Part shown: positions 2,470 to 8,528 of the stretch, in pieces
How the letters are laid out: every line of letters begins with the position of its first letter
Numbering within the stretch: position 1 is the stretch's first letter
Source: Syntrophorhabdaceae bacterium PtaU1.Bin034
GTDB lineage: Bacteria > Desulfobacterota_G > Syntrophorhabdia > Syntrophorhabdales > WCHB1-27
Direction of reading: 5' to 3'
DNA length: 10,254 bases
Assembly: GCA_002067405.1 (NCBI GenBank)
Contig: MVRP01000148.1
Span: 1 to 10,254 of the forward strand
Translations under genes and position numbers: made by a program
The notes under the pieces: generated by a model
What the model was told of the DNA's origin: nothing
Seen by the model: the letters and a program-made list of their open reading frames with translations, nothing else
Database searches by the model: none

Positions 2470-2620
2470 TCCGTACTTCCTGCCGGTGATTTTCATCCGA
2501 TGAAATAACCACACCATCTGTCGAAGATTTCTTCCGTTCCCGGCTCCACCGCTGTCGCTCCGTGTTATTGGCGGCACGTCATCCAAATGCGGTCACCCTG
2601 TCTTCGCCACGCCGCTTCAA

Positions 2621-2648
2621 TTGACAAAAAAGAAAAGGTGTTTAGTTT
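2621..2648 (+). promoter_or_regulatory. Probable sigma70 promoter of the Gly/Ser-rich protein gene
   Basis: A perfect TTGACA (2621-2626) is followed after 16 bp by TAGTTT (2643-2648), a weak -10 match. The site lies in a 213-base gap and is the only good -35 box before a gene with a perfect ribosome binding site. The AT-rich stretch around it contrasts with the GC-rich flanks. Confidence 0.45.
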
Positions 2649-2682
2649 TTCAGTAATCACGCAATATAAGGAGGTGAAAAGC

Positions 2683-3009
2683 ATGAGGAACAGAGCGATT
2701 TTTATCTGGGTGCTCGTGATCGGCCTGATGGCGGCGTGGACCGTCGGAACGACGGACGCCCTCGCAGGAGGCAAGAAGAGTCAGGACCAGCAGAGCAGCG
2801 GCAGTCAGATGGGTGGCCAGAAAGACAGCGGCACTTCAAGCAGTCAGATGGGTGGCCAGAGCGAGAGCGGAACCACAAGCAGAGACATGGGCAAATCAGG
2901 AGCAGGCCCATCGGGTAGCCAGGGCGGCACGAGCGGCATGGGCAGCGGCAGCACATCGGGCGGCAGCAGCTCGGGAATGGGTACCGGAAGTTCAGGCGGA
3001 TCAAAATAG
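2683..3009 (+). CDS. Secreted Gly/Ser-rich low-complexity protein, unknown function
   Basis: The product has 108 residues. The start at 2683 is fixed by AAGGAGGTGA (2668-2677), a full 10-base complement to the 16S tail, 5 bases upstream. A clear signal peptide (positive MRNR, hydrophobic 5-21) ends in ALA at 26-28, giving a mature chain of about 80 residues. That chain has no Cys, almost no hydrophobic residues except Met, and is rich in Gly, Ser, Gln and Thr. The unit SQMGGQ occurs twice in a 13-residue repeat, and GMG/GSG/GGS runs fill the C-terminus. The DNA carries an identical 21-base copy pair at 2801-2821 and 2840-2860. The protein is probably disordered and periplasmic or extracellular. 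I recognise no family, and similar strings occur by convergence in many unrelated secreted proteins. The strong binding site suggests high expression. Confidence 0.8.
   Translation: MRNRAIFIWVLVIGLMAAWTVGTTDALAGGKKSQDQQSSGSQMGGQKDSGTSSSQMGGQSESGTTSRDMGKSGAGPSGSQGGTSGMGSGSTSGGSSSGMGTGSSGGSK
2801..2860 (+). repeat. Direct repeat inside the Gly/Ser-rich gene (39-bp period)
   Basis: A 21-base sequence starting GCAGTCAGATGGG at 2801 is repeated without a change at 2840. The 39-bp period equals 13 codons, so the repeat is in frame and encodes SQMGGQ plus flanking residues. This fits internal duplication of coding sequence rather than a regulatory repeat. Confidence 0.85.
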
Positions 3010-6192: not shown

Positions 6193-6282
6193 CTTCGGCA
6201 GTAATGCACCCCTACAACAAAAGGAAGAGGCGTTTTACTTGCCGGCAACCCGCTTGCAGGTGCCCCCGGGTCGCCCTTTCTA

Positions 6283-6302
6283 CTGCAGAAGTTATTCTAC
6301 AG
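6283..6302 (-). other. Stem-loop downstream of the selenorhodanese gene
   Basis: On the - strand CTGTAGAA and TTCTGCAG form an 8-bp stem with one G-U pair and loop TAAC, starting 18 bases after the TAG stop at 6321-6323. It has no T-tract, so it may be a weak or factor-dependent transcript end. Its position after the second stop rather than after the TGA agrees with the gene ending at 6321. Confidence 0.35.
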
Positions 6303-6320
6303 CTATCCTGCGATTGCGGG

Positions 6321-6740
6321 CTATTGTTCGGTTTCCACGCTATGGCCCTTCGCGACCCATGCGGGATAACCGGCCATAAGGGTATCAACATTCCGGTAGC
6401 CCATGTTTTTGGCTGCGACCGCCGCCTGCTTGCTCGGTTGTCAGCCGTGTCCCCGGCAGTAAAAGATGATCTGCAGGTCCTTGTCGGAAGGCAACAGCGC
6501 TGCCAATCCGTCGAACCTGTGCGGCGGTATATTCAGAGCACCCGGAATATGCCCTTGCCTGAATTCGTATTCGGTCCTCGTATCCACAAGAAGAAAGTCA
6601 CTTTTCTGGTCCAGCATCTTCTTGAGCTGTTCGATGCTCACATCCGTGATAGGTCTCGTGGGCTGCATGGTTGAGCACGAGACGAAGAATAGCGCGGCAA
6701 GAAATAGTGGAAGCATGTATACATTCCGGCCGGTTTTCAT
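6321..6740 (-). CDS. Probable selenocysteine-containing rhodanese-domain lipoprotein (in-frame TGA at 6441-6443)
   Basis: Read through the TGA, the product has 139 residues. Residues 1-21 are a lipoprotein signal with a slightly atypical lipobox, FVSC, and lipidation at Cys22. A rhodanese domain follows: LLVDTRTEYEF (50-60), GHIPGALNIP (63-72), then the loop FYCRGHG with catalytic-type Cys95, codon 100 = TGA, and QPSKQAA, MGYRNV, MAGYPAW and VAKGHSVE up to TAG. The part after the TGA is exactly what a rhodanese needs (helix after the loop, GY-NV strand, G-P-W), so the frame is conserved through the stop. As I recall, related anaerobe proteins have a second Cys at this place (YCGG-x-KC-x-LS); here Sec100 would replace it, giving C-x4-U. 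A hairpin of SECIS type lies 14 bases downstream. The lipid anchor places it in the cell envelope. A one-base TGC/TGT to TGA pseudogene is the main alternative; stopping at 99 residues would remove about a third of the domain. Confidence 0.75.
6393..6443 (-). promoter_or_regulatory. Candidate bacterial SECIS element after the in-frame TGA
   Basis: Downstream of TGA (6443-6441, - strand), bases 6426-6421 (GGCGGC) pair with 6416-6411 (GCAGCC) with one G-A mismatch, closing a 4-base loop GGUC at 6420-6417. The loop begins 20 bases after the TGA. The E. coli fdhF SECIS also has a GGUC loop, about 18 bases after its UGA, and SelB reads this loop. A possible lower stem pairs CCGAGC (6437-6432) with GCU-AC-CGG (6400-6393), with a 2-base bulge. 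Position, loop bases and size fit the published bacterial pattern; the fold was drawn by eye. Confidence 0.6.
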
Positions 6741-6779
6741 GCGTCTAATTTAGCAAAAAAACCTCCTGATGTCATTAAG

Positions 6780-6808
6780 ATCGTATGGAATAGCGGAAGA
6801 GGAACCAA
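6780..6808 (-). promoter_or_regulatory. Possible promoter of the selenorhodanese gene
   Basis: On the - strand TTGGTT (6808-6803) and TACGAT (6785-6780) are spaced by 17 bp, three and four matches to consensus. A start about seven bases on would give a leader of roughly 35 bases containing AGGAGG. The match is modest, but no other gene would drive this unit, as the region above it is a gene remnant. Confidence 0.3.
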
Positions 6809-6895
6809 TGCGGGGTACGGTCAGGGACAATACGGTCACGGGAACTATTCAAGTGTCCACTTTGCCACAGGAACGATTACCCTTAGCAGCCTGGC

Positions 6896-7177
6896 TCAAT
6901 TCGGCTCCCGGGCCGTTGACCTTGGGATATAACGCCATCCAAAGTCGTAACCGCTGGCGCTAAGCGCTTTAAGTTCCGCCAATTGCCTGTCCTCCATCGG
7001 CTGCACACCGGTTATCTCCAGACGCAGAAAAGTGTTTCCTTCATAGCTCGCATTGGTGAAGCAGTAGATACCGGCCGGTCCCTGTGGTATTGCTCCGGAG
7101 GCGATTGCCGGTTTGAAGGCCGGGAGCCCCGTGAATGCCTCCGGCCCTTCAATGCTAACGGGCAGTCCTTGTCCGTA
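6896..7177 (-). pseudogene. Coding-like frame without a usable start, probable gene remnant
   Basis: A frame of 93 codons is open between TGA 7178-7180 and TGA 6896-6898 and reads like real protein: LPAFKPAIASG, then GIYCFTNASYEGN, FLRLEITGVQP, ELKALSASGYDF and GWRYIPRS near the end. No ATG, GTG or TTG occurs in its first half; an ATT at 7151-7153, right after the MFS stop, is the only near-start, and the first GTG and ATG come very late. It overlaps the intact MFS end by 23 bases in another frame. It is either the 3' end of a gene cut by rearrangement or a gene with an unusual start. I do not recognise the family. The rest of 6741-7154 holds only the possible promoter and short repeats. Confidence 0.35.
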
Positions 7178-8528
7178 TCAATTCTTCCTCCACTGCCTCC
7201 AGCGTTTGTCCTTTCACATTGACCCTGTAGAAGAAGACGAGCACTGCGCACAGGAAACAGGGGATCGCGAAAATTGCGAAATACTGGCTGAATGAGAACC
7301 CGCCTGCCTGAAGAAGGCCGCCCAGCATGGGGCCGCACACAGCCCCGAACCTCCCCATCGTCAGGGCCCACCCTACCCCTGTGGAGCGTACGTGGGTGGG
7401 GTAGATCTCACCCGTCACCGCATGGTTGGCCGACTGTCCTCCGATGACAAAGAAACCGGTCGCGGTGCCGACAATGTACAGGGCGAGCGGACTATGCGTG
7501 CTCAGCCCGAAGACCCACATGGAAATCGCCGCGAGAACATAAGCAAAGACAAGGGCCGATTTCCTCCCGAACCGGTCCATGACGACGCCAAGACAGATAG
7601 CACCGGCCGCGCCTCCGAGGTGATTCAAAAGCGTGTAGCCGTAGCTCTTGACCATGGGGATGCCCGATTTCACGAGAAGCGTAGGGAGCCAGGTGGTCAA
7701 ACCATAGATGCACAGCAGGTTGAAGAAGTAGACGAACCAGATGAGGATCGTCATGATGGCCAGTCTGGACGTAAAAAGGGTCTTTATGCCGCTGCTCTTA
7801 TGCCCGGCGGCAACAGTGGGAAAACTCTCTTTCGTCCATTCAGCGGGGGTTGCTCCCGCTGCCTTTTCGATGCGCCGCAGGACTTGGATGGCCTTGTCGA
7901 ATTTTCCTTTTTCCGCAAGGAAGCGGACGGACTCGGGAAGAAGCCAGAGCAGCACAGGGATGAACAGTATCGGAATGAGGGCAAAGAGCAATACGACCCG
8001 CCAGCCGTACGCGGGAATTACCAGGATCGATATCAGCCCGGCAATGGCCGGTCCTATCATAAAGCCGGTGAACATGGTGCTGACCATCCTGGCACGAACT
8101 TTAGCCGGAGCAAACTCCGACGTGAGGGTGATCGTGAGGGTGAGCGCTCCGCCTATCCCCAGCCCGGCCAGGAAGCGGAAAATACAGAAGGTTTTGAAGT
8201 CTGGTGCGAAATAGAGAATACCGCTGAAGAACGAGAACAGGAAGAGGCCGATTATAAGGGGCACTTTCCTGCCTATCCTGTCCGCCAGCATCCCGAGCCC
8301 GGCCGTCCCAATCATGAGGCCTACCAGGCCGTATGACATGATGGAGCCTGCCTGGATTGGGGTCAGATGCCATTCTTTCACTATATGAGGCATGGCGTAG
8401 GCGAGTATCTGGGAATCGTACCCGTCGAAAATCAGCGTGAACAGCCCGAGGACCAGTAAAAGACCGTGGAAACGGTTGAATTTCAGTTCATCGCAAAACT
8501 GCGTTGCGTTCAATGTCGTCTGTTTCAT
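7155..8528 (-). CDS. MFS carrier of the aromatic acid:H+ symporter type
   Basis: The 457-residue product has twelve predicted membrane helices in two halves with a central cytoplasmic loop (about 198-245). MFS marks are DGYD in helix 1 (35-38), typical of the AAHS group (PcaK, BenK), LADRIGRK in loop 2-3 (81-88), FRFLAGLGIGGA in helix 4 (117-128), PESVRFL after helix 6 (198-204) and a second MDRFGRKS in the second half. AAHS members bring benzoate-like acids into the cell with protons; the exact substrate cannot be read here. The ATG at 8528 has AGAGGA six bases upstream. It follows the GntR-type regulator gene by 26 bases and very likely shares its transcript, suggesting that it imports the compound handled by the amidohydrolase. 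Confidence 0.9.
   Translation of the reverse strand: MKQTTLNATQFCDELKFNRFHGLLLVLGLFTLIFDGYDSQILAYAMPHIVKEWHLTPIQAGSIMSYGLVGLMIGTAGLGMLADRIGRKVPLIIGLFLFSFFSGILYFAPDFKTFCIFRFLAGLGIGGALTLTITLTSEFAPAKVRARMVSTMFTGFMIGPAIAGLISILVIPAYGWRVVLLFALIPILFIPVLLWLLPESVRFLAEKGKFDKAIQVLRRIEKAAGATPAEWTKESFPTVAAGHKSSGIKTLFTSRLAIMTILIWFVYFFNLLCIYGLTTWLPTLLVKSGIPMVKSYGYTLLNHLGGAAGAICLGVVMDRFGRKSALVFAYVLAAISMWVFGLSTHSPLALYIVGTATGFFVIGGQSANHAVTGEIYPTHVRSTGVGWALTMGRFGAVCGPMLGGLLQAGGFSFSQYFAIFAIPCFLCAVLVFFYRVNVKGQTLEAVEEELIRTRTAR

Follow-up and report, generated by a model that had tools for sequence, protein, structure and literature searches.

A selenocysteine codon very probably lies in the active-site loop of a rhodanese lipoprotein gene with a C-x4-U arrangement

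Selenoproteins of the rhodanese type have been reported since 2005 (PMC9312934, PMC1088965, PMC2398784, PMC5029168; accessible sections), as the preliminary description of this DNA had noted, and a table row for one such class in the accessible part of PMC5029168 carries the numbers 24 and 25. The excerpted table of a 2026 review (PMC13188914) lists five rhodanese forms, with the motifs UxxS, UxxG, CxU, UxxG and UxxxxU (TsoB), and classes every one of them as a predicted rather than an experimentally verified selenoprotein. Nothing on a C-x4-U family appears in the accessible portions of PMC1794560, PMC11227280 and PMC10298544, relevant words are absent from PMC12013277, and no C-x4-U rhodanese is named in the titles or abstract openings listed by searches of the openly licensed PMC literature.

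Here we analyzed a stretch of 10,254 nucleotides (the window), the minus strand of which encodes such a loop. Translated from 6740 to 6321, the frame reads M...FYC95RGHG-TGA100-QPSKQAAVAAKNMGYRNVDTLMAGYPAWVAKGHSVETEQ-TAG. A single in-frame TGA (6443-6441) lies five residues past Cys95 and is followed by 39 codons before the TAG at 6323-6321. The preliminary description had noticed this lone TGA and the reading on to TAG without giving a strand; both stand, on the minus strand. The Pfam rhodanese match (PF00581) spans the TGA, covering residues 36-130 with 72.7 bits against a cut-off of 22.2; Sec was entered as Cys in the searches and in structure modelling. The features of the locus are as follows.

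6321..6740, minus strand: putative selenoprotein gene for a rhodanese lipoprotein of 139 residues with predicted Sec100; ATG at 6740-6738, TAG at 6323-6321
6441..6443, minus strand: in-frame TGA, codon 100, predicted to encode Sec from the frame, the homologue comparison and the tree
6456..6458, minus strand: codon of Cys95, the rhodanese catalytic-type residue, invariant in both alignments; the C-x4-U loop is formed by residues 95-100
6675..6740, minus strand: predicted lipoprotein signal peptide with lipobox FVSC and Cys22, the motif being present in 14 of 16 close-clade proteins
6324..6440, minus strand: 39 codons past the TGA, a conserved rhodanese C-terminus by identity to full-length Cys relatives
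6411..6426, minus strand: weak candidate bSECIS hairpin GGC-g-GC[GGUC]GC-a-GCC, -5.5 kcal/mol, not above background

The lipobox (residues 19-22) follows a hydrophobic stretch, and the 14 close-clade proteins that share the motif include the window's own; the exceptions are P0005, which has a late start, and P0114 (SFSC). Judged from this motif, the rhodanese is probably lipid-anchored, in agreement with the earlier reading of it as a lipoprotein. The database version of the protein, P0002, has 99 residues and is exactly the truncated product that automatic annotation had been expected to give.

Among the tabulated forms, form 1 of PMC13188914 (PF00581, UxxS, WP_010941598.1) is described in the accessible part as a rhodanese domain with Sec followed by x-x-S, and the window protein reads U100-Q-P-S103; compared by motif description, form 1 may belong to the same family as the window rhodanese. 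Form 5, TsoB (NF045694), is a rhodanese/DsbD fusion and gives the window protein its best NCBIfam match (4.2e-21 over residues 35-138). Its UxxxxU motif, likened here by spacing alone, sets two redox residues as far apart as they are in the window's C-x4-U. In contrast to TsoB, however, the first of these residues is Cys rather than Sec, and the window protein has only 139 residues and scores 74.7 bits where the cut-off is 805. Form 3, rhodanese_LYCAU (NF041203, CxU), is a small rhodanese in which Cys is kept and Sec follows, as in the window, but the Sec stands at +2 rather than +5, and the score of 48.9 bits is below the cut-off of 115. The window rhodanese therefore falls below the curated cut-offs of both NF045694 and NF041203. 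The earlier suggestion that the arrangement may be new holds in part: C-x4-U does not occur in the motif column of the excerpted review table, yet form 1 may overlap with it and TsoB has the same spacing. On sequence grounds, the window gene very probably joins the rhodanese selenoproteins, a kind already known.

The residue at loop position 100 was compared in homologues. A first protein search returned 17 proteins, P0002 included; ten others end at P0002's exact end point, P0003, P0004, P0005 and P0018 have Cys at position 100 and read through, and P0014 and P0015 have Trp there. Two profile searches, with about 8000 candidates scored in each, gave 555 and 1138 matches, of which the best 120 were listed each time; the second used full-length rows only, because the first profile had included truncated rows. 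Across the 124 homologues of the first search and first profile, 100 (P0002 among them) end exactly four residues past the catalytic Cys, and in the remainder Cys comes next in 21 and Trp in 3. A census of the first loop of each of 174 homologues other than P0002 found that 103 end one residue before position 100 (in protein records, where the stop codon is not read), 67 have Cys at this position, 3 have Trp and one, P0173, has a loop one residue longer; because each profile list held the best 120 matches, these loop counts are not whole-family frequencies. The Cys that had been predicted at position 100 of relatives is thus present in 67 of the 174, and the catalytic-type Cys95, which had been described as kept, is invariant in both alignments. 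The pattern C-x4-C-x-x-[ST] occurs in 64 of 176 proteins, counting the window's, written with Cys. In the later loops of two-domain relatives the position is held by R (16), S (3), A (3), F (1) or C (1), and one protein ends there. A two-domain rhodanese of Desulfobacterales bacterium HSG17, P0162, has C-x4-C in its first domain, and its second domain ends FYCGGFT, stopping exactly before the equivalent of loop position 100, where perhaps a Sec is encoded. Beyond these proteins, two scans of viral contigs gave zero confirmed relatives, and a tblastn search of plasmid sequences gave 137 records, all below 60% identity, of which 20 were listed.

These counts bear on whether the TGA is simply a nonsense mutation or sequencing error at what would be a Cys codon in an ordinary C-x4-C rhodanese. 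Of the 71 other homologues that continue past this position, 67 have Cys there, a single change turns TGC or TGT into TGA, and the SECIS candidate described below is weak, all of which would fit such an event. Against it, 103 of the 174 end at the identical place, which errors or decay would not bring about, and the frame remains intact beyond the TGA, with conservation similar to that of the part before it. We therefore regard a mutation or error as highly improbable.

The conservation past the TGA was assessed in seven full-length Cys relatives. Identities to the window protein after and before the TGA are 25/39 and 44/70 for P0003, 26/37 and 38/70 for P0004, 22/37 and 37/61 for P0005, 20/37 and 42/70 for P0025, 16/37 and 33/70 for P0023, 18/39 and 31/70 for P0028, and 11/37 and 31/70 for P0030. 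Conservation after the TGA is therefore similar to or greater than that before it in six of the seven, and lower in P0030. A tree of 60 chosen rows (29 Cys, 27 truncated, 3 Trp and the window) was built from the 98 columns before the loop position. On this tree, in which many forks are open, seven changes between Cys and truncated-or-Trp are counted, six of them forced by starred branches. Such repeated exchange fits a Cys/Sec exchange, whereas broken genes would not cluster in this way.

The Trp records, from P0014, P0015 and P0026 (3 of the 174 other homologues), are metagenome gene calls, and they could be taken to mean that the TGA is read as another residue, either as Trp under a changed code or as Cys by a suppressor. 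However, TGA terminates four of the nine other window reading frames taken as genes, eight of which have a Pfam match, so the code in the window is the standard one and TGA is a normal stop elsewhere in it, as had been stated. Furthermore, P0014 and P0015 have a second Trp exactly where their relative P0023 ends (KPW versus KP) and thus overrun that end, as calling with table 4 would give, and P0035, with 3 differences from P0014 in 93 residues, already stops at the loop position. From the second Trp and the ending of P0035 at the loop we infer that P0014 and P0015 were called with table 4, in which case their Trp stands for TGA; P0026 is without a second sign of such calling. Together the alignments indicate that the three Trp records are probably table-4 gene calls, and decoding of the window's TGA as Trp or Cys seems to us exceedingly improbable.

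The predicted model of the window protein is a confident one (mean pLDDT 88.2) and shows an ordinary rhodanese, in which the loop of residues 95-100 lies between the strand 90-94 and the helix 101-112. The Foldseek matches listed are mainly rhodaneses or rhodanese-containing proteins. By sequence, the top PDB match is 6mxv, which shows no second Cys in the printed alignment; TAL-effector PDB matches were rejected as repeat artefacts, since no single stretch of them passes. The model also speaks to the possibility that the 99-residue protein is the real product and that the rest of the frame is dead or regulatory. This truncated form is the one in the database, and many relatives are recorded likewise, yet it would be without the helix 101-112, the strand 118-121 and the helix 124-130 of the modelled fold, and the region past the TGA is conserved. 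A genuine 99-residue product is, in our judgement, very unlikely.

For the RNA, we used the bacterial SECIS model given in the accessible part of PMC13188914, with an energy limit of -7.5 kcal/mol; according to the same text, some selenoprotein genes fail this model. In the window hairpin the apical loop GGUC starts 20 nt past the TGA, as the model wants, and the same is seen at the Methylomirabilota locus L014/L036, a likeness that may stem from the protein because both sites encode AAVAA. The hairpin folds at -5.5 kcal/mol, and at -7.0 when extended by one base at either end, short of the limit in both cases. Among 300 coding positions drawn at random from the window, 132 reached -5.5 and 102 reached -7.5, and 135 of 150 synonymous recodings were equal to or better than the window. 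A SECIS element was therefore set aside as positive evidence, the candidate being no better than the coding background or synonymous recodings. Of four stretches that were folded, the 44 nt containing the TGA gave z = -3.38, a folding value matched by 75 of 1000 synonymous recodings, and the others gave 0.21, 0.38 and 1.02; for the two stretches starting at the TGA, 804 and 782 of 1000 recodings matched or beat the window. Taken together, the RNA results lean, if at all, against a SECIS element here.

Searches of 95 Methylomirabilota genomes, first with the window protein and later with a profile, turned up many rhodaneses with in-frame TGA. The loci examined, which are part of those listed and include 40 more stretches fetched after the profile search, hold 53 TGA-bearing loops at 52 places: 27 U-x-C, 13 C-x-U (two of them in L068), 6 U-x-U, 6 C-x4-U, and one whose U has no partner at +2. 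The C-x4-U loci, read in DNA, come from six genomes, and five of them have YCGGP[NT]UAQSP and one has YCWDYQUDLS. In five of these six genomes selA, selB and tRNA-Sec are over their cut-offs, with all three on one contig. None of the three is over the cut-offs in G062, which carries the YCWDYQU locus (L076); its C-x4-TGA frame reflects either an incomplete genome or a residue that is not selenocysteine. The C-x4-U-x-x-S loop of L036, L037, L063, L038 and L071 is the same as the window's, and the frame of L071 hits a TAG shortly past the loop. L014 and L017, which are the same places as L036 and L037, share 37-38% identity with the window protein. The C-x4-U loci differ from the window in having stronger folds past the TGA. 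Thus the idea that other genomes have TGA at this loop position is borne out by DNA from six Methylomirabilota genomes, whose proteins are distant relatives; for close relatives the sign is protein truncation alone.

Full-length ProRS sequences of the 95 genomes are at most 51% identical to that of the window, and a Methylomirabilota origin of the window was rejected. TsoB gave no match over its cut-off in 94 Methylomirabilota genomes. In 288 Verrucomicrobiota genomes, 48 matches (E <= 1e-15, 43 genomes) contained no in-frame stops; this is a weak control, because the ten matches that were fetched all lack the [FVILM][YFVL]C motif and are not close relatives. Within the one phylum Methylomirabilota, U-x-U, U-x-C, C-x-U and C-x4-U forms all occur. 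Six small rhodaneses (L013, L039, L040, L041, L044 and L092) have two in-frame TGA codons two codons apart (FYUTUP), which suggests, from the sequence, that they are double selenoproteins with a U-x-U motif. In five genomes of the phylum (G044, G045, G046, G063 and G064), the ProRS match is reported with one in-frame TAG.

The TGA at the position where relatives have Cys, the conserved C-terminus beyond it and the many relatives whose records end at that point together support the Sec reading, and on this comparative evidence the window rhodanese is very probably a real selenoprotein. The explanation that we consider likely is a lipid-anchored rhodanese in which UGA would be decoded as Sec100, with translation running on to the TAG, and in which Sec100 would take part in a redox cycle with Cys95. 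In rhodaneses, the loop residues form a cradle around the persulfide carried by the first Cys. The loop C95-R-G-H-G-U100 would pair this catalytic-type Cys with a Sec at the loop end, well placed to attack the persulfide, which favors a cycle through a Cys95-Sec100 selenenylsulfide. In such a cycle, which would run in the envelope, Cys95 would take up a sulfane sulfur and hold it as a persulfide. Sec100, as the last loop residue, would attack the persulfide so that sulfide is released or the sulfur is passed on, and the resulting selenenylsulfide would be reduced by a thioredoxin-like partner. The Cys relatives would run the same cycle with a disulfide. The protein would then act as a redox rhodanese, that is, a sulfane-sulfur or persulfide reductase, rather than as a plain thiosulfate:cyanide sulfurtransferase.

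A selenoprotein at this locus might instead act not on sulfane sulfur but on selenium or oxyanions, for example in the reduction or delivery of selenite. In Geobacter sulfurreducens the rhodanese-like lipoprotein ExtH is encoded beside extI, the loss of which impairs selenite and tellurite reduction (PMC5877670, PMC6148476; accessible parts). ExtH, at 49.0 kDa (PMC5877670), is far larger than the window protein, however, and its cluster has cytochromes, whereas a Pfam scan of nine further proteins of the window finds none. In addition, the neighbors of the rhodanese gene (ProRS, an MFS transporter and an amidohydrolase) point to no such pathway. We consider a selenium-handling role unlikely.

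The family proteins examined, drawn from the best-120 lists, are mostly recorded as stumps. We offer as a tentative proposal, one that we would not yet favor, that the C-x4-U rhodaneses form a large envelope selenoprotein family, present in databases mostly as stumps of ~93-101 residues, whose members would be selenenylsulfide-forming sulfane-sulfur or persulfide reductases. If true, this would be a redox chemistry not assigned to rhodaneses in the excerpted table of PMC13188914, and the repeated Cys/Sec exchange would be a natural experiment. Pairs from this family with Cys or predicted Sec at one loop position could make selenium's gain in sulfane-sulfur chemistry directly measurable. The records also point to a systematic database fault, in which clusters of ~93-101-residue "rhodanese" records are probably selenoproteins cut at the active site.

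Elsewhere in the window, Rfam gave no match, nor did it on 6200-7200 at a permissive threshold, and ARAGORN found nothing. On the plus strand, 2587-3009 encodes a short secreted-looking protein with repeated QMGGQ units and a high content of Gly, Ser and Gln; it has no Pfam match. Between the MFS and rhodanese genes, 7177-6896 on the minus strand is open for 93 residues; this stretch lacks a clear start, ends with TGA and overlaps the end of the MFS gene.
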